Source: Tilletia caries
Taxonomy: Eukaryota; Basidiomycota; Exobasidiomycetes; Tilletiales; Tilletiaceae
NCBI GenBank assembly: GCA_032718865.1
Contig: JALUTQ010000041.1
Location: 248,001-312,000, forward strand
DNA: 64,000 bases
Reading direction: 5' to 3'
In this document: piece by piece, positions 2,633 to 32,833 of the stretch
Position numbering within the stretch: position 1 is the stretch's first letter
Layout of the letters: each line of letters starts with the position of its first letter
Translations under genes and position numbers: made by a program
Notes under the pieces: model-generated
What the model was told of the DNA's origin: nothing
Database searches by the model: none
What the model saw: only the letters and a program-made list of their open reading frames with translations

Positions 2633-2761
2633 GCTAATGAAAACACCACTTGAGATCCTCCGCTAGTAACATCGGAAGCAAAAGGGCCAAACCTTTACAT
2701 TCTTCGTCTCACAAGGCTGCTCGGGAAGCTCCTCCGCCTCGATAGGCATCTCGCTAAGCTG

Positions 2762-2841: not shown

Positions 2842-2869
2842 AGCTGCTCCGCCTCCTCCGACAAGGCTG

Positions 2870-8801: not shown

Positions 8802-9150
8802 TAGGGCTGGCTTGCGGAGTAACTGATTTTTTGCCCATGTGCGGAGTACTCCGCAAAGGGTGAGCGTGGAATGAGGCTAGCGGCGGAGGGCTCCGTCACT
8901 CCGCACATTTTCAAAGTTTTCCTCCGTACTTACTCCTTACTCCGCCACTGCGGAGGAAGATTTTGAAAAACGCCCTCCTCACTCCGCAATGGCGGAGGAA
9001 CAATTCATAACTCGTCCTCCGCACTCCGCACAAATTCGGACGGAATACTCCGTCGATGTGAAAAAAAAAGTGCGGAGTAATTTTTTGTTACTCCGCAAGT
9101 GCGGAGTTTTGCGGAGTGGAAATCAAAATTTATGTACATGGAGGGGGAAA
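8802..9150. repeat. hAT subterminal repeats
   Basis: Roughly a dozen CTCCGCA / TGCGGAG words in both orientations, several as the palindrome GCGGAGTACTCCGC, lie directly inside the terminus at 8802. The mirror-image stretch is at 21851-22240. In hAT elements, subterminal repeats of this kind are transposase-binding sites (known for the superfamily; inferred here). Confidence 0.7.
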
Positions 9151-9591
9151 ACATCAATTTACTCTTCTTCATCCTCCGCAAGCGCCGTCTTTTGCTTCTT
9201 GCGTGCCTTGTCCGCCATCAACCTCCTCTTCCGCTTCTTCTCGTTCCTCGCCGCCTCTTTCAAATCACGCTCCCGCTGCAGCAGATTGGTCAGCAAGTCG
9301 GAGGGCACCCAGTCGTCAAGGAACCATTGCCCGACAGCCACAACCAAGTTTGAGCGCCCTCATGCTGTGGCGAAGGGGCGTGACGTTGCGACCGGCGCGG
9401 GAGAAGAGACGTTCGACATCTACTGACGTGGTTGTAAGAAGGATAAAAGGTTAGAATGATGATGAGGATCATATGGTTATTACGCCTGATGCCATCATCT
9501 ACTCACCAGGGCAGCTAAGGACGTCCCGACGTCCAGCGCCATTCTGCTAATCCCATCCGCTCATTCCCCCGTTGTTTTTCCTTCCACCACC

Positions 9592-9840
9592 TGTGCTGAA
9601 CGGGTCCACATGGCTTATCCACGTGGCTCCCTTATCCTATCTACTATCTTCCCTTTCCCTTTATTCTCACACCACTCCACATTCACCTCCACTTTTCCCA
9701 CGCTCTTCTCTCTCGATCACATCTTTTCCTTCGCACTCCTCCCTGTACTTAGCGTTCTTCCTAATCAATCACTTACTCAACTTACTCTACTCTTGACTTC
9801 TACTGGCACGTCTGCTATACTCTGGATCTTATTCTGTACA
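9592..9840 (+). repeat. 5' LTR of the LARD-like element (249 bp)
   Basis: Matches 11713-11948 with a few substitutions and one 13-bp length difference near the 5' end, where a CCACATGG/CCACGTGG motif is doubled here. Confidence 0.9.
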
Positions 9841-11712
9841 TGGTGATGAGAGGGACTCTTCTCGGTTAACGAATGACGGGCGCCGAGGACCCCTACCTGC
9901 TGCGCTCAAGACGCGCACCCCCTCCAGACACCGCCTTCAAGATCGGCAAGTCGTCACGCTCTTCCCTGCTGCGCTCCATATGCCAGCTCCGCCGCTAGCA
10001 ACGGTCACTCTCACTCGCAAATATGTCGCCCACATCGACATCACCTCAAGCACCTGGTTCGCTGCGCTCTGGTTGCCAGCTCGTTTCATCCAGCATCAAT
10101 GTCGCTTCAGCATCCTAGAGACGGATCTCGACAGCTCCCTAGTCCCTTCGGCTCCCAGCAGCCTCCCTTCGCCTTCTCAAAGCCTTCATCCGGATTCCAG
10201 CAGTCTCGATACGGGCTTCATGCATCCTGCTGTGCTCCAAATGCCAGCCTCTCCATCTTTCCCTCCTTCGACGCTCTATATGCGATGAAGCTCTCCTGCT
10301 GGTCTCTGACACCGCCGATGGTATCAACACGGCCTTCTCCAGCTTCAAGGCAGCAACCTTCATCTGGCTCCCATGCGGCAAGCTCCATCATCCTCAACCC
10401 GGACTTCTGCAGCTCTCTTTCGGCTTCCAGCAACGTCGAGGCAACATGACTTCGAGCAGCTCCTGATGAGTCTTGAATGTCCTTCAGATGGATTCATCTG
10501 CCAACCAGACGCGTCGAGGTCGAGATATCCCTCCGCTGATATCTCCAGCACGTCACTCGGGATCGCCGGCTGGATCGGCCTTGCCTCACGCTCGTCCTCT
10601 CCTGGGTCTCTTTCTTACGCTCCGACTGCGCATTCACCCGCAATCTCCATCTGGATCGGCATTCCTCATGATGCGCCAGCTCGTCACCGCTCCGGACGCG
10701 TACTCTCCAGCTCCTTGCTTGGCTACGAGCAGCAAGCACGCCAATCCTTCCTCGCGCTCAGTCTGCGCGTTTGTGATACTCTGAGCCGCTAAGAACGTGG
10801 ACAAGAGCTTCCTCCGTGCTCAGGACACGCCTACCCCTATCGCTCTAGATGCGATCACGTTCATCTCCTTTGCTCTCAGGACACGCACATCATCGCTTGG
10901 TTCAAACGTGAGAATCGCATCTCTATTTCTGCTCAGGACACCCGAGACTGCAGGCTGCGGCTCACTTCGGCGGCTCCGTCAAGGTCATCGTCGTCGCTGT
11001 CCTCCCCCCTCCCTTGACCGGTACACTCAGCAACAAGCAACCTTCTCCGCATCACGCGTCCTGGGCACCATCGTCGTCGACGCCCTCCCCTCCCCTATAC
11101 AACTACTCCCAAATACAGGCGACTCCGGATGCCGGTGCCGTTGCCTGTCTCACCGTCATGCGCATCAACAACGCGCTAACCGCCGCCCCCACTGCTTACG
11201 GTCCCGACGAGTAGGGCGCGGGCAAGCAGCACGCTCTCATCTTGGGGGGCAAGAACATCGACAACCGTCTCGCTATCGCTTCATTCGGGAGTTCAAGCGC
11301 AAGGTCCAGACGCATACCACCACCGGACCGCCGCCGAGCGAGCACAGCGCCTTCTTACTTCAACACCAAGACTAACGAGGAGGAGGCCTTGGGCGAGATC
11401 CGGCTGGTCCTTGACGGGGAATCGTGGTGACTCGGCCGCCGCCGCCGGTCTGTTCTCGTTGGACTTCTAACTCACAACACAGCGACACAGTCGAATCGCG
11501 ACTTCAGGACTGACTTCGGGACTGGGCTTCCAGATGCCCTTTGTCCGTGTCTATCATCCTGCTCTTGGGTTCCACACAGCTTCACCTTGATCCTTATTCC
11601 TATATCGCCCTCATTCTATGCGCTCATCCCCTCCTTCAATTCTCGCTGCATGCCCGCCGCACTTCTCCAGCCCATATCACGACTAGGGACAGTCGTCTTT
11701 TGTGGGTGGGGA

Positions 11713-11948
11713 TGTGCTGAACGGGTCCACGTGGCTCCCTTATCTTATCTACTATCTTCCCTTTCCCTTTATTCTCACACCACTCCACATTCACCTCCAC
11801 TTTTCCCACGCTCTTCTCTCTCGATCACATCTTTTCCTTCGCACTCCTCCCTGTACTTAGCGTTCTCCCTAATCAATCACTTACTCAACTTACTCTACTC
11901 TTGACTTCTACTGGCACGTCTGCTATACTCTGGATCTTATTCTGTACA
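11713..11948 (+). repeat. 3' LTR of the LARD-like element (236 bp)
   Basis: Direct-repeat partner of 9592-9840, preceded by the purine tract at 11702-11712 and followed by the CCACC target duplication. Confidence 0.9.
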
Positions 11949-11999
11949 CCACCAGGCCAGCGGGTCTACCGTTTCCTTCTTCTTCGACAAAGGAGTAAC

Positions 12000-12720
12000 C
12001 AGGGCTCGGCTCCGAGTTCCGACTATAGTCGCACGTTTTTTGGCATAGTCATAGTCGTAGTCGTAGGCGTTTTTTGAAAATCCAAAATAGTCATAGTCGT
12101 AAGTCTGACTATAGTGCCATAATCGACTATAGTCGCAGGATTTTGCGCATCCAAATTTTGCACTATAGTGTGACTTTAGCCAAAATTGGAACGCCAGTGC
12201 GCCACTATAGTCGGACTTTGGGACAATAATTCTCGCACTATAGTTGCACGTCAAATTTCAGACCATAAATAGTCATAATGTAGGTCGCCTTCCATTGTCT
12301 AAAATCGGATATAGTCAGGCTATGGTTCGACTATCCAACGATAATATTCGCACTATGACTGGCTATAGTGTTTCATGGGCAATGGATGTCATAGTCTGAC
12401 TATAGCGGTGGCGGTCGGGCCTGCGGCTATAGTCGCAACTCCAAGCTATAGTCAGACCATGACATACTATAGTCGGACTATAGCCGAATTGTTTGCTGCG
12501 ACTATAGCCTTGACATCCAGCTACTGTCCGACTATAGTTGCAAAATCGATTTTAGACCAGATTTTTGACGACTATGGCGACTATTGTCTTACATTTTCTG
12601 GAGCATAGTCATAGTCATAGTCGTAAGTTCGACTATCAGCGGCTATGACTATGGTCGCTCATAGTCGTATGAGGCTATAGTCGTAATAGTCGTAAAATAT
12701 TATAGTCGTGCCGAGCCCTG
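12000..12720. mobile_element. hAT-type MITE, 11-bp TIR CAGGGCTCGGC, 8-bp TSD GGAGTAAC
   Basis: The 721-bp element begins CAGGGCTCGGC and ends GCCGAGCCCTG, an 11-bp perfect inverted repeat with the CAGGG start typical of hAT elements. GGAGTAAC is repeated exactly on both sides (11992-11999 and 12721-12728), the 8-bp duplication of hAT. The interior holds no gene but dozens of ATAGTC/GACTAT words, many as the palindrome GACTATAGTC. The host is itself a hAT transposase gene, whose frame (DVTP then LSKKK) continues once the element and one TSD are discounted. A non-autonomous hAT element is a strong call. Confidence 0.95.
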
Positions 12721-13137
12721 GGAGTAACGTCGGCGAGCCATTCTTCAATCGGATCGACCGCCTTCGCCTCTGCCCTCCTCGCAATGGACCGTTTCATCAT
12801 GGCAGCAATGACCGGGTCCTCCTCCGCATCTTCCTTCCCGTTGTCCGGCGTGTCCTGATCATCCTGAGACTCCAACGGAACCACTTTGTAGAACGCCTCG
12901 TAGTTGCTCCGGAAGATGTCCTTAGCTGTCTCCTTCCAATCCTCCTGCCATTTCATCGCCTCCAAGAAGTCCATGCGGTAGTTTGGATGAAGGACTGCGT
13001 TGCGGAGTACGGAGTAATATCAATTAGTATCAGTCACGGGAACGGAGTGAAAACAGAAGTCAGAACTGCTCACGGACAGCGAGACTTTATACCTCCGTCT
13101 GTTCGCTATGCCCATAATACTTGGACACCACCTTCCT

Positions 13138-13418
13138 TCCCCGCCAGACGCCTCGCCTTCAAACGGGACGAGCCTTTGCTTGGGATCGAGCGGAGAGTCG
13201 ATGGGGGTAAGGTCCTTCATATTGAAGCGTTCGAGCATGGAGCGGATGTTTGCCGTCTGGGAGATGAGGAAGGATTGATTGTCGTCGCTCCGTTCGATCT
13301 TCATGCCCAGGAACTGTCCGATGCTCCCTTGATCCGTCATCTTGAAGCGTTTGGCAAAGGCAACCTTGAACGCCTTGATGTCTTCAATACTCTTGCTGAG
13401 AACCAAGACATCGTCACG
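13138..13418 (-). pseudogene. Copia-3 reverse transcriptase fragment
   Basis: Minus-strand frame DDVLVLSKSIEDIK, then FKMTDQGSIGQFLGMKIERS, NIRSMLERFNMKD and SPLDPKQRLVPFEGEASGG. This is the copia RT segment from the YVDD active-site box onward. The fragment begins inside that box (only DD is left) and stops at the inversion junction, where it is fused to the hAT gene through GCGGGGA (13138-13144). The missing downstream part, starting around AERIQMFQAIIGCLNWL, is at 25834 on the plus strand. Non-functional fragment. Confidence 0.8.
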
Positions 13419-13487
13419 TTGTCAGTTTCCAGTGGGCATTGGATCAATACATATCATCGATACGCGTATGCGTTTTTGATCTGGACT

Positions 13488-14133
13488 ATTCTATTTACCG
13501 CGCCCCCGCGGTTCCCGGGATTGACCGCGCCTGCGAGTAACAAAGGGAAACTTCTGCAGACCGCGCCTCGTGTCACAAAATAATCACGTGCACAAGCTTT
13601 GCGCTGGGACCTCTCAGGGCCGCACTTAGACCTCCCGCGGCCGCGCTTGGACCTCTGGACGCCAGATTTGGCGCAGATGAGGCATGGACACAACCTTACT
13701 TCCTTGTCCCTTCGCCATCGCCGAGGTGATGCCCGACCAAAGGCGATGGTGACCTATTGCCGGTTCAATGAGTGTTGATGACCCTTGAGACTCCATTTTA
13801 CAGTCTTACGGCCTGAAATTTCAAAATTAAAATTAGATGCCACATGTAGGCCATAGGCCTTATGAGGCAAGCACCGCAGCAATAAGGGGAAAAGCTGGCA
13901 GATGTCAGACCTGGTGGCTGGGTGGCTACCTACGAGGTCTTGCTTGGGCAGACGCCTTTGAAAACACCAGAGGATGGCCTATTGTGCCTTTAGGCTGACT
14001 GCGGGAAGCGCGCTGGGTCCCGAGTTGAACAAGAGAGTTTAAGGTTGGATGAGGGTCTGACAGAAATTTAGAGTTTCACGTGCGGTTCACAGAATTTTAC
14101 CGCGCTTTTCGGTGAGGGCGCGGTAAATAGAAT
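13488..14133. mobile_element. TIR element with 18-bp ends
   Basis: ATTCTATTTACCGCGCCC at 13488-13505 is matched by its exact reverse complement at 14116-14133, giving a 646-bp element without a transposase frame. GC-rich words such as ACCGCGC and GGACCTC recur inside. The ends contain TA dinucleotides that could be a mariner-type target duplication, but because the inverted repeat extends past them this cannot be settled. Confidence 0.65.
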
Positions 14134-14769
14134 TGTCCTTTTGATCTCCTCAGTTTGTACAGCGCCATAGCAGCAGTCCCAGTTTTCACGTCACAACAGC
14201 TTCGGAAACACGTGTTCGGCTGTATAAGCATGTCCTATGCGCGCCTGGGCGAGGAAGTGGGTGACTGGGGGTAGGCCAGTAGGGTGCGCGGGCGATGCCG
14301 AGGCAAGGCCTAGAGGGGGACGAGAAGGATGGACAGAAGTTCCTTTCAGCATACTCATGCAACCACATGTGTGGCAAGGAGATACATACTCAGTTGGATG
14401 CGCTTTGCATCAGCAGCAGAGATGTTCCGAAGAAGCTGTGGAAGATGAGTGGACTGTGGAAGATGAGCGGGGAAAGGATAAGGGAGGAAGGAGGTCAGCG
14501 ACGGACGCTGCCACTAGTGAGCCATCAGTAAGCGAAACGAGGCGGCGCGCAGGGGCTCTGAAGGAGCAGCAGGGGACCCCATGTATGCGCGAGGTGTTTC
14601 TGTAGCTGTTCTGTATGTGACTTGAGTGAGCATGCGTATGTATTGGTGTGTGGTGTGGACAGTGCTGGGTGTGGTCGCTCCATAGTCCATAGTCTCCCTC
14701 TCTCGCGAGAAATTGTTCCGGGAACTCTCAAGGATGCCAGGCTTTCTCCTGGTTTTTCTGACGCACTTC
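14134..14769. other. No gene seen
   Basis: Several open frames of 80-120 codons on both strands show no domain signal or codon pattern that favours one of them. Confidence 0.35.
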
Positions 14770-15990
14770 CTCGACTTTCAATTGAATGTTGAAGGTCCCT
14801 CATTCCCTCTGCTGCAGATGCGAGCGTGGTTCGGATTTGCTTGTTGATCGGCGGCTCTGGAAGTGCGCGTAGCCTTGCTGACCCGGTGTCGAGTGTCCGC
14901 TCTGACCTCGCCGTACTCGTCGAATGCAGCATTCAACGTTTGCACCATCCTTTGATTCTCACCCTTCTTTGTCAATGCATTCCTCATGAAACTCAGCTCT
15001 TCGTCCTGCCAGCGCCTCAAACGTAAGAGCGACCCCACTCGCCAATGATGCGGCCTTGAGTGCGGCATCGACGGCGAGACGGGCTTATTGGACCGGAGGT
15101 TCTTCGTTAAGATCGACGTCCAGGCACTTGATGCCTGTTCGGCACCGCTTGTGCTTTTCGCCCGTGGCTGAGATCGACTCGTCGAGACCGAGCCGCGCGG
15201 CCATGAGGGTGAGTGCACGGCTCGTCTACATCCGGCGCGTGAAGTGGGACTCGAAGCCAGGTTAATTTCCGGCCTCACCGACGCGCACAGACGCAAAGTT
15301 CTGGAGGGACAGCCCGCCAGTGTATGCCCGATTTAACAGGTTGCGCTTCAGGCCGGGTGCCAGCGCGAGTCTAGCAGCCTCATCAGAGACTGAGAGAGGT
15401 CGAGCGTCAGCAGTACAGTCTAGATCGGAGAAAACAAAAAGTTCATCATAATCACTTGATGCTGCGATCTGAGCAGCAAAATTGTGTCGAATTTGCTGCC
15501 AGCCGCTGAGGAGAGTAAGGTAAGTCAGCGTTGGTCCAGCTCGGTCGGGATGGCCTTCTGAACTCACTCCGACGGCCGAGATGAAGAGAACGGATTTTCA
15601 GCCCTTTGCATGCCCGAGGCACGTGCAATGGATCAGTCGTCATTGCCTTGAACGTGGGCGTCGCGCCATTGAAAAGGGAATCTTCCCCGACGCCGACGAA
15701 CTTCGTTGCCGAGGAGTTGAGGAAGGCCTTGACGGTCTGAAGCGGCAGTGCGCTTCCAACCTTCTTCAAACTGCCGCGACGGATGAGAAGCCCACGGTAC
15801 AAAATTGATGGGTCACTATCTCCATTCCCCATCACATCAGCTACGCGTTCCGTCTTGACTGCAAGCAGCTGTCTGCTTTCTTCGATGTCCGAAGGCGCAC
15901 AAGAATGCTCGGTCTGTGTCCAATCCTTACGTGAGCGACCGGTAAAACCGAAGATATATTGGTCATTGGATGTAGTTTAAACCATAGTTT
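14770..15990 (-). pseudogene. Unrecognised broken gene
   Basis: Three minus-strand frames read like protein and follow each other with shifts between them. The first (about 15835-15590) includes GNGDSDPSILYRGLLIRRGSLKKVGSALPL in pieces; the second (15567-15262) includes TLTYLTLLSGWQQIRHNF and YDELFVFSDLDC; the third (about 15200-14780) includes LTLMAARLGLDESIS and EELSFMRNALTKKGENQ. A TAA falls inside the last part. Balanced amino-acid composition and Gly/Leu/Asp-rich blocks suggest a once-real gene, but I do not recognise the family. It lies within the inverted segment. Confidence 0.35.
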
Positions 15991-16162
15991 GGCCCAACAG
16001 GAAACGTTTGGCGGTAATGGCGCTCAAGTTTCCAGTATTTGAACCCTAAAACAAGTTTAGGATTTTTGAAGAGTCAAGCGAATACGCTGATTTATGTGTG
16101 AAATATTCTTAGGAGTTAGCCTGTTCGTGTCAGTGAGGTCCAAAGTTTCGGGAGGAATGCTG
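15991..16162. other. Short spacer before copia-1
   Basis: AT-rich stretch without a gene. It ends at the CTCTG target duplication (16163-16167) of copia-1. Confidence 0.5.
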
Positions 16163-16167
16163 CTCTG

Positions 16168-16267
16168 TGTGAAGTGGAGGTCCGGGCCGGACTGCCGTGG
16201 GTGCTGCGTGTCCCTTCTTCCATGTAGAACTTCTTTCTGTCAATGAGAACCACCATCAGTTTCCACA
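16168..16267 (+). repeat. Copia-1 5' LTR (100 bp)
   Basis: Identical by eye to 20646-20745 over all 100 bp. No clear TATA box is seen in this short LTR. Confidence 0.95.
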
Positions 16268-16284
16268 GGTTATGAGTCCACTGC
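16268..16284 (+). promoter_or_regulatory. Copia-1 primer-binding site, initiator tRNA-Met half-tRNA type
   Basis: GGTTATGAGTCC follows the LTR directly. Its reverse complement contains CTCATAACC, the anticodon loop and 3' stem of initiator tRNA-Met, with a G-U-compatible change in the next base and CTGC further on. Drosophila copia and yeast Ty5 also prime from the 5' half of cleaved initiator tRNA-Met, so this fits the family. Confidence 0.75.
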
Positions 16285-16306
16285 TTAACCCTTAGCTACC
16301 CACAAG

Positions 16307-19300
16307 ATGACAAGCTCCTCGGACAAGTTGCGTGAAGGCATCGCGCCCCTGCTCGGTCCCAACTACCGACTGTGGGCGGAGCGCGTCAAGACGGTCCTGC
16401 GATCCCACGGCTACTGGTCCGCCGTTGCGCCCGGGACACCACCCGGTGAGGGGGCAGCGGCGCAGGAGCTCAAGGATTGGACGACAGCCGACGCAAAGGC
16501 TTACGGATGCATCTTCCTCACCACCAGCGATGAGATCCAGACGGATCTGGCCCGACTCGGCACGGAGAATGCGAAGGTCCTCTGGGACTACCTCCGCGAC
16601 GAGTATCGAAGCACTTCGGTGGAGGCAAGACTCCAGCTCAAGAGCGAGCTCCTCGACGCACTGACGGCCCCCAAGGACTCCATGCGCGACCACATCGGAC
16701 AGCTCGCCGGTCTCTACGAGCAGCTACTCCAAATCGGCAAGCCGGTCGACGAGGAGGAGCGCTGCATCGAGCTGCTCTGGAGTCTGCCGTCTGCGTACCG
16801 AGGCTTCAAGTGGAGCGCGAGCGCAACGACGTCGTGGACGGAGCTTCGGTCGAAGATCCTGGAAGCGGAACGGTCCCTCAAGCGTGAGGATGAGAAGGAC
16901 GCCAAGACCCGACAGGACGCTGCCTTCGCGGTCTACCACGCGCCCAGCCCTGCAAAGAGCAGCGGCAAAGGAGGCTCTCCGGCGAGCAGGCACGGAAGCA
17001 CCTCAAAGGACGAAGGTTCCTTTGGCGGAGCATGTTGGCTCTGCAAGCAGAAGGGGCATCGTTTCTACAACTGCCCCCACATCGACTCGGCTCAAGACTT
17101 CATCAGCACGAAGGTCGATAGCAAGAAGCACCAGGACACCGCGGCCATGGCGCGAGAAGCCAAGCCGCAGGCTACGGACAATCCCGCCGATGTCGACTTC
17201 GCCTGTGCGGTGGGTGCCTCCAGCACGATGGCTGGGCACTTCATCCTCGACACCGGCAGCTCTCGGCACATCGTCGCCAACGCATCCGGCCTCACGGACT
17301 ACCGAGCAGCCAAGCCCGACACCGGCATTGAGTGCGCCAACGGAGGGCTCATGCCGGTCACAGGATACGGCAACCTCGTGGTCACGACGCAAGCCGGCCT
17401 CAAGATCGAGCTCAAGGACGTCGCACACTGTCCCTCCGCGATCGGCAACCTGATCGGCGGCAAGCGCCTAACAAAGAGCGGGTGCTCGATCTCATTCGAC
17501 AACACGTCCGCGACTGTGACTGAAGGCAGTACCGGGCGAGTCATCATGAAGGCATCGGTCGTTGGCGAGAACTGGGTCGTCCCGCTGGAGTCAGCAGCAA
17601 CGGACTCGGTGATGGTAGCGTCCGAGCCGAGCGCTGATCCGGAAACCATGCACTGGCATCGGTGCGCCGGTCACGTCGGCGAGTCCACCCTTCAAGCCCT
17701 GGCAGCAACGGGCACCGTCGCGGGCATGCCGAAGAAGCTCGGTCCGCTCGGGTTCTGCTCCGACTGCGCCGAAGGCAAGATCGCGAGGAGCAAGCACCCG
17801 CGCATAGCAATTGGTGAGCGGGAGCACCGGCCACTCAGCAAGATCCATGTTGACCCTTTTGGCCCCGTCAATCTGAAGGATGGGCAGGCACTGGGCGGCG
17901 CGAAGTACGGGCTCATCATCACTGATGAGGCGAGCCACCACGTCTGGGTTAGCACGACGCAGTACAAGTCAGAGGCTGCAGGGATCCTCAAGGCTTTCCA
18001 TGCCCAGGCGCTGACTCGCTACCCGGAGAAGCCAATCAGCCGGATCCGTACGGACAATGCGTCGGAGCTCAACTCGGCAGAGCTGTTGGAGTATTGGGCT
18101 ACGCACGGGGTCAAGGTGGAACCGTCACCACGCTACGCGCCCCAGAGCAACGGGGTGGCCGAGAGGGCAGTGCGGACAATCACCGAGATGTGTAGAACGA
18201 TGTTGATTGCAGCAAATCTACCCGCATCATTTTTGGCCTGCAGCTGTGCGAACGGCAGCATACGTGAAGAACAGAGTGCCGGCGACGGGATTGAGGAAGG
18301 GGGAGACGCCTTATGAGGCATTGCATGGGCGACCGCCCAAGCCGGAGCGTCTCAGAATGTTCGGATGCATTGCATGGGCCAAGATTCCGGAAGCACAGAG
18401 GACGGGCAAGTTCAGCACGAAGGCCATGCCCTGTATCTACCTGGGTCCAGCCTTCACCAACGCTTCTCGGTTGTGGGATCCCATCTCGAAGAAGGAGATG
18501 ATCGAGCACTCGGTGGTGTTCGACGAAGAAGGAAAGGCGGGCACGCTGCTCGAGAAGGAGCAGAGCCGTCAATACGAGCAGCAAGTTGCGCAGCTCAGAG
18601 CCCTCAACCTCACCGGTGACGACGCTCAAGCGGGACGCGTCGAGAAGGAGCCAGTGCGGATGGGAGGTCAGTTGGAGGTCGGAGAAGACGTCCGAGCAGC
18701 GATGCAGGCTGTCTTGGACGAGGACGCTGCGCCAGAGGGAGTTCGTGATGCGATGGAACGAGCAGCTCGCGGACAATCGATTGCCTATGACGAGATGGGC
18801 CGGATCGCGAGGCTGCTGGCCGACCTTCATCGCGAACTCGCGGCGCCAGAGGGAGAAGACAGAGGCGGCGAGAGTGGTCAGGCGACCACGCAGGAGGCCA
18901 CCGCTGGACGAAGGAGCGCTCGGATCGCGGGACAGCCAGCGTTGGAGGTGTCTTTGCCGCCCTCCAGCCGAAAGCGGAAGGAACCGGACGGTGCCTACAC
19001 GGTGGGAACGTGCTTCGTCGTCATGGAGCCCAGCGAAGTCCCCTACGACGATCCTTGGTCCGTCGCGGAGGCAGCACGGCGAACGGACAGCAGGCTCTGG
19101 CTTGAGGCGATGCAGAAGGAACTCAAGTCGCACGATGGTCGGGGAACGTGGGAGATCGTCACGGCACCCCTAGGAGCGAACCTGGTCAGCGCCAAATGGG
19201 TCTTTCGGGTCAAGAGGAACGGGGATGCGACGATTCAGAAGTACAAGGCACGGCTAGTGGCGCGAGGATTCACGCAAGTTCAAGGCGTCGATTTCGAGGA

Positions 19301-20594
19301 GACCTTCGCCCCAACCTCACGCCTACAGATCCTTCGCTTGTTCTGCGCGCTCGTCGCTGTTCTGGACATGGACTTGCACCAGATCGACTTTGAGACGGCC
19401 TATCTGAATGCGACTCTGACGCACGACATCTAGATGCTGCCGCCGGAAGGAGTCGAGCTCATGCCCCACCAGGTCCTCAAGCTTCGTCGCGCCCTTTATG
19501 GCCTCAAGCAGTCGGCGCACGACTGGTACGCCGTTCTTCGGGACTCCCTGAAGACCATTGGCTTCGAGCAATGCGCGCTCGATCCCACAATCTACGTCCG
19601 GAACGGCGATAACCCAGCAATGTTGCTGGTTTACGTCGATGATATCTTGGTGGCGGCACCGAAGGGAAACGGCGTCGAGACGACGAAAGCCGAGCTCCTC
19701 GGGCTGTTCAAGGGAACGGACTTGGGGCCCGCTCATTACTGCTTGGGGATTAGGATTGAACGAGATCGCAAGCAGAGGACAATCTCGCTCGACCAAGAGC
19801 GGTACGCCGAGGAGGTCCTCGCCCGCTTCGGGATGTCCGACTGCAAGCCGGCCAAGACGCCTATGATGGCAAAGCAAACGCTCAGGAAGGCGGTCGATGG
19901 CGAGGCACGAGCGGACAAGGCGCAGTATCAGGCCCTCGTTGGCTCCATGGCCTACTTCGCTCAAGGCACCCGAGCCGACCTCGCCTACTACGTCAGCGTG
20001 CTCGGCAAGTTCTGTGCCGACCCTTCGGACACTCACTGGATCGCGGCGAAACACGGCCTGCGATACTTGCGCGGGACGTCGGGGGCAAGGCTGGTGTTCG
20101 GCGGCGCGGAGGACTTGCAGGTTCGGGGATTTGTCGATGCGGATTGGGCTGCGGACAAGGATGACAGGAGGTCAATGTCCGGCTACGTGTTCACGGTCGG
20201 AGGAGGAGCGGTGGCTTGGGGCTCGCACAAGCAGGGCGCGGTGGCTTTGTCTACGGCAGAGGCCGAGTACATTGCGGCGGGGGTTGCTGGTCGGGAGGCG
20301 ATCATGCTCAAAGGAGCATTGCCGGCATGCGGTCAGCTGGTTGGAACGATTACGGTACACTGCGACAATCAGGCGGCAATCCAGTTGGTCAAGAACCCTG
20401 GATCTCACCATGACCGCAGCAAGCACATCGACATCGTACATCATTGGGTTCGGGATCAAACACAGCTGGGAGCCTTTGCGTTCGAATACATCCCGACCGA
20501 CCTCAACCCTGCCGACGCGTTCACCAAGTCACTCGGCGCCATCAAGCACAACCAGCACGCGGAGCGTATCGGATTGGAATTGCGCAGGGAGTGA
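16307..20594 (+). pseudogene. Copia-1 gag-pol polyprotein with one frameshift and one in-frame stop
   Basis: The frame opens with MTSSSDKLREGIAPLLG, a gag of the copia type. A zinc knuckle (CWLCKQKGHRFYNC, about residue 243) and a protease (FILDTGSSRHIV, about residue 315) follow. The integrase has its HHCC-like pre-domain (MHWHRCAGHVG..CSDC) and catalytic D, D, E (HVDPFGPV, RTDNASE, NGVAERAV). The frame breaks near 18230 in a T5 run where T4 would keep PASFWPAAVRTA in phase, and resumes with AYVKNRVPATG. In RT a TAG at 19431-19433 replaces the Tyr expected in DI-Y-M.PPEG. The RT active site YVDD is at about 19632, and the RNase H domain (FVDADWAAD, AEAEYIA, HCDNQAAI) ends at a TGA at 20592-20594. 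Confidence 0.9.
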
Positions 20595-20645
20595 AGGAAT
20601 GGAGGACAGGAACAGGAGGGATCAGGAGACTACGCAGAGAGGGAG

Positions 20646-20745
20646 TGTGAAGTGGAGGTCCGGGCCGGACTGCCGTGGGTGCTGCGTGTCCCTTCTTCCA
20701 TGTAGAACTTCTTTCTGTCAATGAGAACCACCATCAGTTTCCACA
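20646..20745 (+). repeat. Copia-1 3' LTR (100 bp)
   Basis: Direct-repeat partner of 16168-16267, followed by the CTCTG target duplication. Confidence 0.95.
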
Positions 20746-20750
20746 CTCTG

Positions 20751-21842
20751 CCTGGTCATGGATTCAGTCACTCCGTACTCCGTTGCAAAGTAATCTAAAG
20801 GCATCCATCATTTTCCATGCTTTCGACACATGGCGGACTAACTCTCCAAGCTCCGTACTTCTGCAGATCTAAATCAACTGGAGACCCGATCAAATCGCCG
20901 GACCTGCACTATGTGTTCCGTACTCCGCCGGAGTATGGCTCCGGATAAATGGAGAATCACGGGATCAGGGATTACTTCGTTCGGACCGGCTAGCGGCTAA
21001 AGACGGACACGGAGCGGTCCAGCGTGCTCCGTACTCTGGGACCCCTACTCCGGCTGATTCCGGCAGATTTTGAGATGCATTTTCGCACTGCGCACTCCGC
21101 TCGTTTTTAGGCAGTCACCCAAACTCTCCTCCACGCTCCGCATAATATCACCCGACTGCATTGCGCCAGCTCCTTACTCTGGCTAAAATTTAAGTCTAAT
21201 CCGTAGTCCGGGCGCTCCTACTTCCCCGAAACTCCGTACTGCGGGAAAAGTTTGCTTAGGTCCTCCAAAATGTGGATCTTTAAATTGATTGAGGCTCTTC
21301 CGTCGATGTTACTTTTCAACAGAATCATCGTTGTCCGTCGTAAAGCTCATTGACACAAATTTTGGACCCCAAATGAGAAATCTGAAAATAAATTTGGATA
21401 ATTTGGAAAATTGGAGCTAAACATGCTTTCTTCCTGGATAAAATTTTCATAATTGCAACCTGATTTTGAAAAAGGCAAGGCCCCGGAGCATCCCGCAGTT
21501 TTCTGGAAATTCCGCACTCCATCTGGTCATTAATCTCGTCACTCCGTACTCCGTCAAAAGTTCGCGGGAAGAGAGCGCGAACCGCGGAGGCAGGGGTAGT
21601 GTAGCTGGTATTGCCGATACTGTAGAGGAAACAGTCGATGATAAATGAAAAGAGGTAGCAAGAGTTCGCAACGAAAGGGAAAGCATAAAAGGAGAGGTAG
21701 GAGGGGTGTCCGACACACCACGCGCAAACGAGACCAGTGGGCGAGATAGAGCGCGGGGGGCAGAGCCGGTGGCTGTACAGCTGTACTGCTTTTAGTGAGC
21801 AAGAGAGGGTAGAAAATGTCAGAAGAGGTCGGCATGGGCATA
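20751..21842. repeat. TACTCCG repeat island, no gene
   Basis: From 20755 to about 21260 the sequence is dense in CTCCGTACTCCG and related words, like the islands at 2870 and 7960. From 21260 to 21842 the repeats thin out. Frames on the minus strand (21325-21900) look like low-complexity Ser/Phe/Leu runs and are not supported as genes. Confidence 0.5.
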
Positions 21843-21850
21843 GTCTTTGG

Positions 21851-22240
21851 TAGGGCTGGCTTGCGGAGTAACTCATTTCATGTTTTTGCGGAGTACTCCG
21901 CAAATTTTCATGTTTTACTCCGCAGTTTTACACCGCACAGCACTCCGCAAAATGTGCGGAGTGCCTGCGGAGGGACCAAAAACTCCGCGGAGTTCTCCGC
22001 ATGTTTTGGGAAAATTCGGAAATATTTGCGGAATATTCCGCTTGGAATCTGTGCGGACGACGGAGTAAGATTTTTGAAAAGTTCCTCCGCCACTGCGGAG
22101 TAGGGAGTAACTTTCTCGAGATGGTCAAAAATTCGACTACTCCGCTTACTCCGCACTTACTCCGCACTTTTGAAATGAGACTTTTTTCCAACTTGGACCC
22201 TCCACTCACTTTCCTTTTCTCACGCACGAGCGCGCAAGCG
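21851..22240. repeat. hAT subterminal repeats
   Basis: At least fifteen ACTCCGC / GCGGAGT words in both orientations, including the palindrome GCGGAGTACTCCGC, mirror the stretch at 8802-9150. Confidence 0.7.
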
Positions 22241-23479
22241 GGTCACATGACCAATTAATTTAAACTCCGATCCTTTCTTCTTTTTTCGTGATAGGCCTAA
22301 AGTAGCGCGGCTCCGCATTCGAAGAACACTCCTCTACTTCCTCAACTCCGTTTACCACTTTGCTCCGCAGCCTGCATCTTGCAAAACACTTCTCTACTCC
22401 TCTTCGTTTACAGCTTCATTCCGCCGTTCCACCCTGAGGATGCCAAACAACTCCGACGGGCCGGCACGGCCGTATGGTCTCCGCGACCCATCCGCAATCA
22501 AGAGGCCGACCCTTGCTGGCGAGATGCCAGCCACGCAAGAATCTGCTGCATCTTCCTTATCTCCTTCAACAGCTGCGCCCGTTTCGACTAGCACAGCCAC
22601 CACTTCGAATCCTCCCACCAATCCGGAGGTCGGTCAAGTTTCCGGCGTTCCGTCCCACAAGAAGCTTCCCGCGCGTCCACCTCAGGTCGAAGCGGTTTCA
22701 TCCTCCTCCTCTCGACCAAAGGCCCGTCTCCTCAAGCCTGGACAACCAGACCGTAATCTGGATCCTTTTCTGCCCAGGACTGTCCGAGTCGAGCGAGTGG
22801 AGGCGTCATCGGATTCGGAGGCAGAGGCGGCGCTCAGTCCTGAGCAGCTTCGTGCGAGCATCAAGAAAGCGGCTAAGATTGGCAAGGGCAAATCAAAGCA
22901 GAAGGCGGGAACCGCAGCCGCCAAGCGCACCACCAGCAAGAAGGCCGACTTGGCTTCTGAATCGGAGTTCGACGATCTCACGGACGACGAAGCTGCTACA
23001 CCTCCATCCGCTCAGAATCCAAAGGAAAAGAGCACGGTTCCTCCTAAGTCTGTCTCCGTCTCTATCGATCTCACTGGAGACAGCCAGGAGCAGCTCTCGG
23101 ATAAAACCATTTCTCCCACCAAAGGCACAGCGTCGCCAACAAAAGCATCAAACACTTCCAACAAGTCGTCCATCAAAGGCAAAGCTAAGGAGGAGCCAAA
23201 ACGTACTCGCAGAGACCCGTCCCCGGAGAAGGCACTCGGTGAGTATCTTGGCCGTTTCCTCTTCGCAATACTGCGGAGTACTTGGATAACACATTGCTGA
23301 AACTCCTTTCTTTCCTGACTTTCTTCAGAAGCAGCAAAGAAATCTTGGAGACTAGCACTGGAGGCAGTGGAGCAAGACGCTATTGCGGAGTCGAAGAGTG
23401 GAGGGTGGGGCGGAAGACGCCGTCAAACGTATACATCTTCTCAGGTCTCGGCAACTTTGTTCACTTCCTATACTTTGTA

Positions 23480-23925
23480 ACTTGGAAGTGAAAACTAGTA
23501 GTGAAACTTTCACTATACTTTGGCTTCTGAGCCGTCGAAAAACAGATAGTGAACTTTCACTTTGGCCGGGCCGGGAAAGTGAAGAAAGTATGGAGATAGT
23601 GAGGTTTGTCTTCATGTTAAACTTGGAGTCACTTTTTATCACTATTAGTGCTGCCAAGTTAACGTAGTCACTTGTAAGTATCTATCCAGTCAAGAAAGTC
23701 ACTAATAGTTTACTACCCAGTTACTATCAAGACTTTATAATCTTGATATCCGATTATGATTTACTGGTATTTTTTGGTCAGCTTTCGTTAATGTCATGCT
23801 TTTTGAAGCCCTTTACGTTTACTTACCTACGATCTGCGTCCAAATCTGTCTGAGACTCCTCATTTCACATCACTTTGTGAAACTTTTGCAACTATCTTCA
23901 TTCTTCACTACCTAGTGACTTGGCA
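23480..23925. other. Non-coding AT-rich stretch inside the hAT gene
   Basis: Contains repeated TAGTGAAA and TTTCACTAT words related to those in the insert at 23934-24115. It could be a further decayed insertion or a large intron; the exon border upstream is not clear. Confidence 0.4.
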
Positions 23926-23933
23926 GAGCTCTG

Positions 23934-24115
23934 ATGAAAAAAATCAGGGACACCCGCGGTCTACTATGCAGCCGGCACGGTCGCAAAAAGCCCTCAAACT
24001 AGTAGTCACTATCTCAACTTTTCATAACTAAACTATACTTTGTCGGCCGGCTGAGAACTTCACTTTCACTTTCACTATACTTTGTCCGAAAAATCGCTCA
24101 CTATCTTTACTTGCC
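23934..24115. mobile_element. 182-bp non-autonomous insert with 8-bp TSD GAGCTCTG
   Basis: GAGCTCTG occurs at 23926-23933 and 24116-24123. Without the 182 bp between them and one copy of the repeat, the transposase frame reads directly from LAEL into CIFYKEP, which confirms the insertion. A related copy lies at 4240-4390. Terminal inverted repeats are not obvious; the 8-bp duplication suggests hAT-type mobilisation. Confidence 0.7.
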
Positions 24116-26379
24116 GAGCTCTGCATCTTCTACAAGGAACCCATTCTTGCGGAGCATCCCACCAACTCAGCAAAGGGGCAAGGAATCGGCTTCTTGTGCA
24201 CGGGCTGCTGCGCCGAGTCTCAGCTGGTCTGGCGTCCCTTCTCCGACAGCTCCACGAGTAACTTACGCGCTCATATCTCCACCAAGGCATCTCTCTCAAC
24301 CCGAGTCAACCTCAGCAAAGCTCAACAGACAGGACCCATGGACGCCTTCATGGTCAAGAAGAACCCGCATGGAGCACCTGTTCTTCACATCACGGCCGCC
24401 GAAGCGAGGCAGATTGCCGTGGAGTGGGTCACCTCCTCTTCTCGACCGCTCAGTATTGTCGAAGACTCCGGTTTCTCCAGACTGCTCAGTCCCGAAGTCA
24501 GGGCGATCATGCCTGGTCGGAAGGTTGTCGGAGACGACGTTGTCCGAATCTACAACGGAATGCAGGATGTGATCAGAGGCCGACTCGCAGCTGTCACTGG
24601 CTGTTTCCATCTCGCCTTGGACGTGTGGACGAGCAAGAACGGCAACTCAATCCTCGGTATCACAGTCAACTACCAGGAGAAGGGCGAGGCAAAGCGGCAC
24701 CTACTCGATATGCTTCCTTTTCTCGCTGCGCATGACTCCAAGAACATGAGCAAGGCAGTGTACCAGGCCATCCAACGCGTCGGGATTAACGATCGGATCT
24801 GGAACATCGTTACGGATAACGCCTCCGAGAACTCCGCAATGCTCCCTTTGCTCTCCGGAATGGGTGGGATGCCTCGATTCCGCGGTAAGGCATCGCAAGT
24901 TCGATGCATGGCACATGTGTGCAACCTGGTCAGCCAGGCGGTCGCCAACACGTTCATCAAAGCTGCGACCTCCGTCGAGGTCAAGAAGAAGCAAGCACCA
25001 ATTGAGGACTCGACGGAGGAGGAGGAAGCTGAGGGTGGTGCTGGAGCAGGTCTTGCGGAGTCGGAGTACGCCAGTGGCTCTGACGAGGAGGAGGGTAGCG
25101 AGCGGGAGGAAGGCGCGGAGTCAGACGACGAGGAGGAGTCGGACGACGTTCTCGATGAGCCCGACGAAGCCATATCTACTGCTGTTTGCGCAGACTTGGC
25201 CGCTAACCAGGACGACGAGGCGGAACTCCGCCAGATCCACTCCGGTCCCAGAACACACCCTCGCTCTTTGAACACTCCGAACACTCCGGCAAGCGGTCCG
25301 CTTGAATTGTCCAGCTCGGAATGCTCTACTCCGCAGATCACGACCACCGCAGCGGAGGAAGAGGAGCAGGAATTGCGCAACGGAGAAGTCGGCCTTCAGA
25401 TCAAGAAGCTTGCTTGGCTCAGCAAAAAGATTCACTATTCTCCCTCCGCACGGCGCAAGTGGAAACGGGAGTGCCGCAAGTTCGCCGTCAAGAAGCCTTG
25501 GACGCTCCTCCGCGATGTCGCCACACGATGGGACTCGACGCAGCGCATGATTGCTCGCGGAGTCGACCTGTGGAAAGCCGTCATCTCCTTCACCGAGAAT
25601 AATCTAGGCATTGTGGACGAGAAGCACCGTCTTCGGCGAACGGACAAGGCAACTTCGAAAACCTTCTCGCCATCCTCACTCCCATGGCAAAGGCTACGGA
25701 GAAGTTCATCGTTCAAGGTCAGGCCAATGATTGGCGAGGTCGTCGGTATGTTTGAACGCCTCGACACTATCTTCAGCAACATCGAGACGGATCCGAGGCG
25801 ACCAGTGGCATGGAGGGAGGCGGCTGAGCGGGGATGTCTGCAGAGCGCATACAGATGTTCCAGGCAATCATCGGGTGTCTAAACTGGTTGGTACAAGCAT
25901 CCCGACCAGACATAGCATACGCCGTCGCCACATTGGCGAGACATTGCAAGAACCCCGGTCCAATCCATTTCGGAGTCGTCAAAAGGGTCATGCGTTACCT
26001 TGTTGCTACAGCCGACTACAAGTTCCGTATTGCCGCCCATTCCATCAACGACGTTACCGCCTACTCCGACGCTGATTTCGGAGGAGACTTTTCCGCTAAG
26101 TCAACCTCTGGCTACAGCGTATCTGTGCACGGTGCGACGGTGGCATGGGGCGCGAAGCTTCATCCTTGATCGCTGATTCTACCGCCCAGGCCGAGCTTAT
26201 TGCCGTCTGGCAGACGACTCGGGAAGTTCTCGCCCTGCGCCACTTCCTCGAGGATCTCGGTCTGCGGACACCTGACTCTGGTCCAGCATCCATCATATAC
26301 TGCGACAATCAGCCGGCTCTCCATATCATCACCAACCCCGTCGCCAATGGCCTCACACGCCATATGGAACGGAAGTACC

Positions 26380-26459
26380 TGTTGGATATATGCATCATCC
26401 ATGACACTTGGGTCGAGACTGGTCTCACCTTTTAGTATAGTGGTAGAATGTTCACAACA
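26380..26459 (+). repeat. Family-B 5' LTR (80 bp)
   Basis: Starts TGTTGGATAT and ends TTCACAACA; identical to 31973-32052. Contains TAGTATAGTGG (26433-26443), a full match to the Pol III A-box consensus TRGYNNARNGG. Confidence 0.95.
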
Positions 26460-26474
26460 GATTAAGAGTCTGAC
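26460..26474 (+). promoter_or_regulatory. Primer-binding site, tRNA-Lys(CUU) half-tRNA type
   Basis: GATTAAGAGTCTGAC abuts the LTR. Its reverse complement carries CAGACTCTTAATC, the anticodon arm of eukaryotic tRNA-Lys(CUU); the next bases (AGCTCT) also match the D-stem side. The same site follows the LTRs at 31778, 38396 (minus) and 47019 (minus). Confidence 0.8.
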
Positions 26475-26989
26475 TAGCTCTGCTCCTTTCTTCCCTCTGC
26501 TCCTGTCCTTGGACTTTCTTCTCGTCCTCGACCTCGTCTTCATCGACTTCGACTTTCGACCTTGTCCTCACGAATCGCTGGTTCTCCACGATTGCTGTCG
26601 GTTTTCCGCTTGCCGCTGGTTCTCCGCCGCCTGCCGACCTACCACCCTGTTTTTCGGTGCTGCTTCTGGTCCTCCTCGCACACCTCGATCTTCGATCACA
26701 CCTTGTTGGTCCTCCCAAGACGGATCCAAGGTTTTCTTCAAGCATCCAAGGCCCGAGCAAGATTTGCCTTTTTCGGCTTTCTCTCTTCGTTCTTGTGCCC
26801 TCGCTGGTCTCGACCTCCTCGACCGCGACTTCAAGAGCCTTTCTTCTGCTCTGCGTCGCCTTCGATCTCGTCCTGCGGTCTCTGCGTTCTCGCTCCCGCC
26901 TCGTCCTCGACTCTCCAGTCTTCTCGACCTCCGATCCTCTTCTTTCTTCGGCCCTCGGTCTTCTTCCTTCTCTGCCTCTCTTTTTCGGC

Positions 26990-29900
26990 ATGGACGACAC
27001 CAACTCCTCCGCCATCTCCGGCATTCCTGCCCTCGTCGGCCTCGAAAACTTCTTCGCCTGGCGAGAGGCAATCGAGCCCGTCTTCAACGGCATCCGCGCG
27101 TTCGACATGGTCCGCGGCGTCGAGACTCGAGACTCAGCCAACTCTGCCGCCAAACGCCACCTCCACCGATGTGCGCCTGTCCGAGTCCTGGAAGGACAGG
27201 GACGCCAAGGCCATGTCCTACCTCCGCAAGACGGTCAGCGGGGCCCTCAAGGCCATGATTCGAGACCTCTCCTCGTCCGCCGACATGTGGTCCCTCCTCG
27301 CCAGTCTTCACGACTTGGGTTCCTCGGATCATCGGAGCGCCATCAACCGCAAGATGGCGAACCTCTTTCTCGACGAGGGCGGAGACATGGTCCAGCACCT
27401 CAACTCCTACATGGAGCTGGTGGCTGAGGCGAGCGCGGCGGGTCTTCCTTGGGGCACGGAGGACAAAGACAAGTGCGACCGTTTCCTCGACACCCTTCCT
27501 CATTCGCTCAGGGTTGTTAGGACGGAGTGGCGGCAGCTTCCGAAGGACGAGCGGACCTTTTTGCAGCTCGTCCGGGTCTACAACGAGGAGAACGCTTCTC
27601 AGAAGCACACGGCGGAGCGCAGCGCCAACGCCATGGCAATGGCCGCTGCCAGCCAACATCTCCACATCGCCATCAAGGGCGTGGCAAACAAGGCCCGCTC
27701 CGGCAAGTCCTCTTCGGGTGGCGGCAAGAAGAAGTCTTCTTCTTCGCCTTCTTCTTCTCAGGCGACCTCCGGCAGCAGCAAGGGCAAGGGCAACAGCAAC
27801 GGCAACAGCAAGCGTCTGCTCTGCTACGGCTGTGGTGCTCGCGACCACGAACGTCCTGACTGTCCAGTCGCGAGCCACCTTCTTCCCGGCAATGGTCCGA
27901 TCTGCTGGACATGCCACAAGCAAGGCCACGTCAAGTCCGAGTGTCCCAAGTCGACTTCGTCGTCCGGAAAGGCTGCCGCCGCCCTCGAGTCTTATCCAGA
28001 CGCCGACGAGATGCTCGCAGCCATGTTTGAGCCCTCCGTTCTTGCCGCCTCCACGACGTCGACCTTGATTCCCTTCATGATCGACTCTGGTGCATCACAG
28101 CACATTGTCGACCGACCCGAGCTGCTCCTCAACTCTCGGAAAGCGGACAAGACCTTGACCTTCAAGACGGTTGGCTCCAAGCAGGCATCCGACCACATCG
28201 GCGATGTCACTGGACTTCTTCCCTCCGGCCGCCGCGTCACTTTCCTGGACGTTGTGCTTCTCCCCGGCGCCGGAGTCAACTTGCTTTCGGAGGAACTGCT
28301 GCGCGAGCGTGGCTGGATCAAAGTCATCGACGAGGATGACAACGCCCACCTCCAGCACAAGGACAACGCCTCTTGGCGCATGCCTTTGACCAAGCGTGGT
28401 CGAGCTCGATGGCTGCTGTTACACGTCGACCTTGCGGCCTCCACATCGTCTCCCTCAGCGATGCTGGCACCAATGCAACCCGCTCAGCGCGATCCCGCTC
28501 TCGAGGTTCACATTCGCCTCGGTCACTTGGGCTTCAGCACCATCAAGAAGCTCGTCCGTTCGGGTCATCTTCCTCCCATTCCTGGACTGAACGATGCCAC
28601 GCCTTGGTGCGATAGCTGCGAAGCTACCAAGGCTACCCGTCGACCTTTCAACGACGCGCCTCTCCACGCGAGTTCTCCGCTGGAGATCATCCTCACGGAT
28701 GTTGGCGGTCCCTTGGTGACTTGTTTTGGCGGTTTCCAGTACTACGCGACCTTCATTGACGAGTACACGGACTACACCAAGGTCGACTTACTCCGCTCCA
28801 AGGCCGAGGTTTTTCGCTCGCCTTGTTGAGTTCGTCAAGGTAGCCGAACGGACTTTCGGCACCAAGGTGCAAGTCATTCGCACCGACGGCGGCGGCGAGT
28901 ACGTCAACAAGCACATGTCCACCTGGACTGCTTCTCAGGGCATCCTCCACCACATCACAACGCCCCACACCCCGGAACTCAACGGTGTGGCTGAGCGCAA
29001 GAATCGTACCCTCAAGGAGATGACCGCCGCCATGCTTCACAGCAGCGGCCTCCCGGTTCAATGGTGGGGACATGCGATTTTATTCGCTGCGGTGTTGCTC
29101 ATGAAGGTCACCTTCGTCAAAGACGGTCGGACGGTTTGGGAGTGGGTACACAAGCGCAAACCCTCCCTCGGCAAGACTCGAGCATTCGGTTCTCCATGCT
29201 GGGTTCATATTCCCGCCGCTAACCGCACCAAGTTGGACCTCACCACTCCCAAGGCCTGGAAGGGACGTTTGGTCAGCTGGCCGACACAGCGCAGCGGCTG
29301 GGGGGTGCACAACGAGACCACGGGCAAGATTGTCTTTTCCCGCAACGTCTCTTTCGGCCCCAAGCTCTCGTCCAAGGTCACCGAGGTCTCCGAGCCTTCC
29401 AACATCGTCCAGCTGGACGTGGAGCCTGGTGATCCCGGTTTCCTCGAGTACGATGAGGAAGACATTTCCGACGATGACGCGGAGCCAGGTCCCGACGCCA
29501 ATAATGTCGAACTTCCTCCTCGTGGCCGCAAACGCCCTGAGCCCGAGGGGGGGTGAATCATGTGCCCGGCAACAGTCCTGCCGTGGCCGATCGACCTCAA
29601 GGCATTCGCCGGCTTCCTGCGCGCGCTGGCCGCGGTCAACGTTCGTCTGCTTTTCGGGACACGTACGCAGCGTTCATGCAGGAGTCGGAGGGGTTTCTTT
29701 GCAAGATTGCCCTCGTCGACGACGACCCCACAAGCTACGGCGACGCTATGTCGAGTCCTGAGCGTCAGCAGTGGGCCAAGGCTTTCGAAGCGGAGCTGGA
29801 GTCTCTGATCAAGAACGAGACGCTCGAGGAGGTGGTCCTTCCTCCCGGCGCCAAGGTCGTATCGACCAAGTGGGTCTGCAAGACTAAGAGGGACGCAGAC

Positions 29901-31290: not shown

Positions 31291-31335
31291 CGGTCATCAC
31301 TCGACTTCAGCAACCACGCTGCGGTTGAGAGGGAG

Positions 31336-31777
31336 TGTTGAAGATTGCATCTTCATAGCAACCTCCACGTGGTTGTGACCTTTCCACAGTCTTTCCTATA
31401 TAGATGAGACCCTTAGTCTCATTTGTGACTCCACTTCCAGTCTCATCGATTCCTGCGTTTGTGACACGAAATCGTTGCGCAACGATGTGGCACACATTGT
31501 CATTGCGCAATGGCTGTCCTCCCCCTGTACCCACAAAGCTATATAAGCAGGCACTTTCCACCACCACTGTTTCCCCCGCTTCTATTGAAATTCAACACAC
31601 ACGTTCCTGCTTCCACTCTCCCTCGTCACCTCCTCACCTTTGACCTCGTCCTCCTCACCTTTGACCTCGTCCTCCTCATCTTTTACCTTCTCGCCCTCAT
31701 CCTTGACTTCCCCGTCAAAGGTTGCATCCCTGACGTATCTTGAGTAGTCGAGCACTGAGCATCTAGCATTCACAACA
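31336..31777 (+). repeat. Family-A LTR (442 bp, internally deleted)
   Basis: Starts TGTTGAAGATTGC and ends CATTCACAACA, preceded by the purine tract GAGAGGGAG. It lacks about 160 bp present in the LTRs at 41549 and 47020, including the CACCTTG hairpin and the GTAGTACC block. It carries a TATA-like CTATATAAG near 31540. Confidence 0.9.
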
Positions 31778-31972: not shown

Positions 31973-32052
31973 TGTTGGATATATGCATCATCCATGACAC
32001 TTGGGTCGAGACTGGTCTCACCTTTTAGTATAGTGGTAGAATGTTCACAACA
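31973..32052 (+). repeat. Family-B 3' LTR (80 bp)
   Basis: Identical to 26380-26459 and followed by the GTACC target duplication. Confidence 0.95.
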
Positions 32053-32254
32053 GTACCTGTCTACACGACAGCATCAGGAGCGAGGTATCATCGACGTGAA
32101 GTACGTCAATACCAAATCCAATCCTGCGGACATGTTCACGAAGGGGCTGCCAGCTGCCACCTTCGCCCAACACCGGGAAGCCATCGGTCTGCATCCGCAT
32201 TAGGTGACCTTCACCTCATCGACATCAGCCAGCATCGTCGGTCATGGGTGGGAG

Positions 32255-32833
32255 TGTTGTTGTGCGGCGCATGGACCGACTCTTCGGGTCGACTCCCCCT
32301 CCGGCTTCTTCTCCGCCACCATCACCCTTTGCGCTCTGTTTCCCCTTTTCCCATCAGCTTCGAGTTAGCCCGCAGTCCGCGGCCTCTCTCTCACTCCCCA
32401 GCTCTTCTTCCTTTTGCTCTTCACCTCTATGCTCCTCTTCACTATATATGGCCATGTTCTCCAATTTCCCCCCTTCTCTCTCTCTCGAATACATCTACAT
32501 CTTCTCTTGATCCCACTACCACTTGTCCCGCAAGAAGCCTCCGAGTTCCATCCTCCTCACCGGTGAGTGGATCTCGGCCAGTCGCGGCTTCGCTTCAAGT
32601 GATCCGCGACAAGAGGAAACGTTCTGAGAAACGAAACGAGATGCGAGAACGAGAATAGGGTGCGGAGGGTGGGGAAAGAAAACAACGAGACTGAAGAGAA
32701 GGCAATGGACGTTCGTACACACTCGAGAGTCGAGAGTGAGTAGGAAAGCGACGAGCAGTGAGAGTGCAAAGGGGGAGAAGATGATGGACCAGTCCTGCGA
32801 GCTTCCTGCTGCGAAGGAAAGAAATTTGCAGGG
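32255..32833 (+). mobile_element. Copia-3 3' LTR start and undefined flank
   Basis: After the RNase H stop codon and the purine tract GGGTGGGAG, TGTTGTTGTGCGG at 32255 is a typical LTR start. A TATATAT box (32443-32449) fits an LTR promoter. The 3' end cannot be set because no second LTR is present. No gene was seen up to the element starting near 32847. Confidence 0.5.

Follow-up and report, generated by a model that had tools for sequence, protein, structure and literature searches.

We analysed a stretch of 64,000 nucleotides from the bunt fungus Tilletia caries (hereafter the window; positions 248001-312000 of contig C36, in an assembly of 38.1 Mb and 40 contigs) in which two unrelated transposable elements, one of the hAT family and one of the Ty1/copia family, are each broken and joined to a part of the other. 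At joint 1 the C-terminal half of the hAT gene meets a fragment of copia reverse transcriptase, and at joint 2 the N-terminal half of the hAT gene meets the copia RNase H part. As references we used intact copies from the same genome, which are paralogues: two of the hAT element (locus L002 on C25 and L003 on C7) and one of copia (L004 on C21). The comparison makes it close to certain that the 12.7 kb between the two joints were inverted. The parts that matter for this conclusion are the following.

8802..13144, minus strand: hAT C-terminal half, up to the terminal repeat at 8802; collinear with the C25 and C7 copies in blocks within 13144-12721, 11999-11947 and 9591-8813.
13138..13144, minus strand: the 7-bp hAT word GCGGGGA at joint 1; aligned with GCGAGGA of C25, to which C7 is identical there.
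13145..13419, minus strand: copia reverse transcriptase fragment of 275 bp, whose 4 joint-side bases are the duplicated TCTG; 97.5% identical to C21; RVT_2 domain with an E-value of 6.4e-10.
13145..25834, no strand: the inverted segment of 12.7 kb, both ends of which change partner relative to the intact hAT and copia copies.
21851..25834, plus strand: hAT N-terminal half, which extends from the terminal repeat (21851) as far as joint 2; collinear with C25 5048-8230 in three blocks, and with C7 from 22711.
25828..25834, plus strand: GCGGGGA at joint 2, 7 bp, a duplicate of the joint-1 word; aligned with the same GCGAGGA of C25, C7 being identical.
25835..25836, plus strand: filler at joint 2, placed by the C21 and C25 alignments; TG with a copia duplication of TCTG, T alone with one of GTCTG.
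25837..26382, plus strand: copia RNase H part, which begins at joint 2 with the duplicated TCTG; 98.2% identical to C21; another copia interrupts it at ~26440-32050.
32052..32611, plus strand: remaining 3' end of that copia copy, which includes the 3' long terminal repeat (LTR) and lies past the later insertion; 95.6% identical to C21 6408-6971, the LTR also matching C21 12687-13043.

The original prediction had proposed that one inversion between the joints explains all four broken ends, and suggested aligning intact relatives from elsewhere in the genome to both joints. We did this by local BLAST of the fetched loci against the window. L002 143-1835 corresponded to window 24124-25834 on the plus strand and L002 1829-1904 to window 13144-13069 on the minus strand, and L003 changed partner at the same place (141-1835 and 1829-2245). 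Both intact hAT copies therefore pass from 25834 (plus) to 13144 (minus), with an overlap of exactly 7 bases. The intact copia L004 matched 13145-13419 and 25837-26382 and passes from 13145 (minus) to 25837 (plus), with an overlap of 4 bases. As the intact copies cross both joints, the N- and C-terminal halves of the hAT gene were once one piece, and so were the reverse transcriptase and RNase H parts of copia. Each sequence that is unbroken in the paralogous copies is split between the two joints, and the two halves are alike in their distance from the references: 72-79% identity in the blocks flanking the joints for hAT, and the 97.5 and 98.2% given above for copia. The single inversion, from ~13145 to 25834, is thus borne out by intact relatives of both elements.

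For both elements the two joints are exact reciprocals, within 4-7 bases, which makes it very improbable that several unrelated insertions or deletions of fragments produced them with no single reciprocal inversion, a view that could draw on the shortness of the copia piece inside the segment. The placing of the copia reverse transcriptase half at joint 1 had been correct; what had been overlooked is that this piece is only 275 bp long and stops at another joint, at 13419, where the 5' part of the copia was lost. There the reverse transcriptase sequence runs into the middle part of an element of 1.15 kb (L034-L037) that has terminal inverted repeats of 105 bp and both ends of which are missing in the window; this joint is probably deletional.

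At the base level, the intact hAT copies (C25 and C7) read GGCAGCGGA GCGAGGA AGGAAGG at the site and the intact copia (C21) reads GGCGAGGCATCTGCAGAGCGC. Joint 1, on the minus strand, reads GGCGAGGCGTCTG followed by GCGGGGAAGGAAGG, and joint 2, on the plus strand, reads GGCGGCTGA GCGGGGA TG TCTGCAGAGCGC. Both joins do occur at GCGGGGA, at 25828-25834 (plus) and 13138-13144 (minus), as had been predicted. The word is derived from hAT and stands at both joints; TCTG, perhaps GTCTG, is derived from copia and also stands at both joints, and joint 2 has in addition 1-2 bases of filler. Eight remoter copia copies (70-74% identity) carry insertions or deletions at the site and are no guide to the choice between TCTG and GTCTG. 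The proposal that GCGGGGA represents microhomology at the joints failed: the C21 copia reads GAGGCATCTGCAGAGCG and does not contain the word, which rules it out as a sequence shared by the two elements. The one-base difference in phase between the two copia parts is real in the window, but it is a by-product of counting GCGGGGA as copia; it vanishes when TCTG is counted once, and the C21 frame is unbroken (EGEASAERIQMF). The hAT frame is likewise unbroken in C25 and C7 (WREAAERGRKVVSKYYG).

GCGGGGA alone is not rare: counting both strands, the window contains it 10 times (3 plus and 7 minus); what stands above chance is that unrelated intact copies change partner exactly at it. We also searched the assembly with each joint, the numbers of matches being lower bounds. 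A query across joint 2 (window 25500-25950) gave at least 4 matches including itself: C25 and C7 matched query positions 1-335 (to 25834) at 81%, and C21 matched positions 338-451 (from 25837) at 98%. A query across joint 1 (window 12900-13430, minus strand) gave at least 10, namely its own locus, C21 with 97% over the copia part, and the eight remoter copia copies. Among the matches listed for the two queries, there was no second sequence spanning either joint. The C25 and C7 hAT copies were not listed by the joint-1 search, but BLAST of the fetched loci found both, at 72-79%.

A region this rich in repeats might be suspected of being an assembly chimera. The closest relatives of the window hAT protein are from Tilletia (bunt fungi), with 100% identity in T. 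laevis (99.6% by tblastn) and 98% over the covered part in T. caries. We placed 19 homologous proteins on the window by tblastn and by eye. P0005 of T. laevis (2 sequences from 2 contigs, with names CF336... and CF335...) crosses joint 2 and has the same read-through end residues as the window. Outside this set of 19, P0020 of T. laevis (5 member sequences) crosses joint 1 into the hAT C-terminal half. P0007 of T. caries (16 member sequences) is a gene model of 937 amino acids that combines the hAT N-terminal half with copia RNase H by means of a GT-AG intron containing joint 2. The reading of this T. caries model is uninterrupted over its 937 amino acids. P0004, P0006 and P0008 (T. maclaganii) continue from the N-terminal into the C-terminal half through the joint region, as genes of an un-inverted hAT should, and the more distant P0010, P0012 and P0013 have hAT sequence on both sides of the joint. 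P0001 loses the frame near the joint, P0002, P0003, P0009 and P0011 stop before it, and P0014-P0019 match the N-terminal half only. We take the gene models that cross the joints for automatic predictions. We rejected the chimera, which we consider hardly credible: both joints recur in separately named predictions from T. laevis or T. caries, and they carry base-exact duplications and filler.

Elements of the hAT family are marked by an 8-bp target duplication and terminal inverted repeats. The C25 hAT element is collinear with the window from its 5' end (corresponding to 21851) to its 3' end (corresponding to 8813), and it has a perfect 8-bp target duplication, ACTATAGC on both sides. The window copy has near-identical termini at 8802 and 21851, and its outer flanks, CCAATGAG and CCAAAGAC, agree at 6 of 8 positions (expected by chance at ~0.004 with equal base use), as had been described. 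The 5' part of the C7 copy was not found by BLAST of the fetched loci, where the match with the window begins at 22711. A Pfam scan returned no family in five hAT pieces of the window and C25, and the precomputed annotation of homologues includes PF05699 (hAT C-terminal dimerisation) for P0013, P0015, P0019 and P0023, among others, and not for P0005 or P0007. The residues VERLFSRAGR resemble the hAT motif. For copia, the C21 copy has an RVT_2 domain (3.6e-72 in the Pfam scan), a pair of LTRs 98.9% identical over 362 columns and a 5-bp target duplication, TGATC on both sides; the same scan found no family in the RNase H piece of the window. The C7 hAT copy contains, near its 3' end, an insertion (L017+L018 9689-10496) similar to window 20998-21553, which is a repeat that flanks the hAT half in the window. 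Two side observations concern the later copia insertion: 81 identical bases flank it (window 26380-26460 and 31973-32053), and nearly the same 80 bases occur at C21 (L019+L020 11716-11795) and at window 2761-2843.

Further elements lie within the hAT halves and the inverted segment.

9592-11948: nested LTR-type element in the hAT C-terminal half, flanked by CCACC.
12000-12720: nested insertion in the hAT C-terminal half, flanked by GGAGTAAC.
13482..14138, no strand: small DNA transposon inside the inverted segment, with the 8-bp duplication TTTTGATC.
16168..20745, plus strand: an unrelated copia wholly within the inverted segment, with identical 100-bp LTRs and the 5-bp duplication CTCTG.
23442-24123: nested insertion in the hAT N-terminal half, flanked by CATCTTCT.

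The assembly contains six other copies of the 13482-14138 transposon, with 97-99% identity over ~641 of 657 bp and with right ends that vary in length, which marks it as recently mobile.

How did the inversion arise? We propose that a hAT element (minus strand) and a copia element (plus strand) lay ~12.7 kb apart in a genome ancestral to the T. caries/T. laevis group, that one cut fell inside the hAT and one inside the copia, and that the segment between them was rejoined upside down, as the comparison with the intact copies shows. Both cuts were most likely staggered, the 5' overhangs measuring 7 bases in the hAT and 4-5 in the copia element. To judge from the duplications, filling in of the overhangs would have placed these bases on both sides, and end joining would have closed joint 1 with no added base and joint 2 with 1-2 extra bases. 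Duplications at both breakpoints of an inversion are described as the mark of staggered breaks and end joining in the available part of PMC3355041, and bases that are single in the intact copies are indeed duplicated in inverted orientation at both breakpoints here, 7 bp from hAT and 4 (or 5) bp from copia. We regard staggered breaks, fill-in and end joining as the likeliest route, and as a probable one.

A second feature near the cuts is a 10-base word, GAGGCGGCTG in hAT and GAGGCGTCTG in copia, which matches at 9 positions and lies beside both cuts in the right orientation. Its chance is ~0.002 (41 of 20,000 random placements, with small shifts allowed), the word having been noticed before it was tested. 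Lying immediately upstream of the two cuts, this near-identity may have kept the ends in contact, which is suggestive only. It could also have guided template switching during repair synthesis, in which case the duplications would be stretches copied twice, and the joint at 13419 would fit as another rearrangement nearby. We consider such a route unlikely, as a switch within the word predicts GAGGCGTCTGAGCGGGGA at joint 1, whereas the window lacks that A, and joint 2 does not use the word. Ectopic recombination between repeats was rejected, as the breakpoints share no long homology beyond this 9-of-10 word.

There is yet another candidate origin of the same inversion, in which the cuts would be the simultaneous excision of two small hAT-type transposons, one nested in the hAT gene and one in the copia gene, whose freed ends were misjoined. 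The target duplication of each element would have remained at either side of its gap, which accounts for the duplications at both sites. Small elements flanked by 8-bp duplications are frequent here: this stretch has three (CATCTTCT, GGAGTAAC and TTTTGATC), one of them with the six close copies mentioned above. Excision scars of hAT elements often carry a complementary base next to the duplication, and GCGGGGA is followed by A at joint 1 and by its complement T at joint 2. However, the intact hAT copies on C25 and C7 and the intact copia copy on C21 all lack an element at these sites, the duplications are of 7 and 4-5 bp rather than 8 and 8, so that bases must also have been lost, and two events are required at the same time. 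We therefore hold this origin to be improbable. Base-level alignment found no transposon end at either joint, and reversed-ends (alternative) transposition was rejected, with no terminus at the joints and the hAT termini at 8802 and 21851.

Several points weigh against an inversion by staggered breaks and end joining. The intact copies are paralogues, and the un-inverted order is unseen at an orthologous locus. Two of the 8 outer flank bases of the window hAT disagree. In a search scoring the best candidates only, there was no second copy of the sequences adjoining the hAT, 8317-8801 or 21540-21850, that could show an empty site; within 7900-8801 only ~7953-8315 was repeated in that search, and BLAST of the fetched loci matched window bases up to 21565. 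Plain end joining has no need of the 9-of-10 word. Finally, the duplications are very short compared with the 1-7 kb of the Drosophila cases, as far as the available text of PMC3355041 goes, and they could be products of a different route, for instance transposon excision or template switching.

As for timing, the copia pieces at the joints differ by 2-3% from C21. The inversion is later than the copia insertion, and it precedes the divergence of the isolates from which P0005, P0007 and P0020 come, unless it was passed between them. Both chimeric products look dead, and we propose no function for them.

The maize element Ac is a hAT element. According to the parts available of PMC8225341, inversions by reversed Ac/fAc ends resemble the present case in combining a hAT element with short duplications at the joints, and differ in having transposon termini and 8-bp duplications at the breakpoints; here the cut falls mid-element, with no terminus at the joint. 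In the portion of PMC3355041 at hand, the D. mojavensis inversions 2h and 2q likewise carry once-single bases at both breakpoints, over kilobases rather than 7 and 4-5 bp; the present cuts lie inside transposons, and in a fungus. The same portion describes ectopic recombination between BuT5 elements in D. mojavensis, which similarly left chimeric transposons at both ends of the segment, whereas here the two elements are unrelated and share only the 10-base word. In the main text of the Tilletia paper PMC9172201, the word 'inversion' occurs 0 times. Inversions with duplicated breakpoints are known, and this one is a small, unusually clean fungal case, otherwise ordinary.

The cut elements being repeats, their intact copies at other loci of the genome provide the reference for the state before the inversion, and no sister genome is needed to read both joints to the base. 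Automatic annotation builds chimeric hAT/copia 'genes' across the joints (P0007 and P0020), which is a warning, and the joints are a ready marker, seen in predictions from both T. laevis and T. caries. Elsewhere in the window, copies of one copia family lie at 26440-32050 and 41551-47623, in opposite orientation and ~10 kb apart, a possible substrate for another inversion. If the two cuts were in fact excisions, events that are otherwise invisible would be readable from the joints of an inversion, and bursts of small elements would have reshaped the bunt genome by inversion, leaving no element behind.

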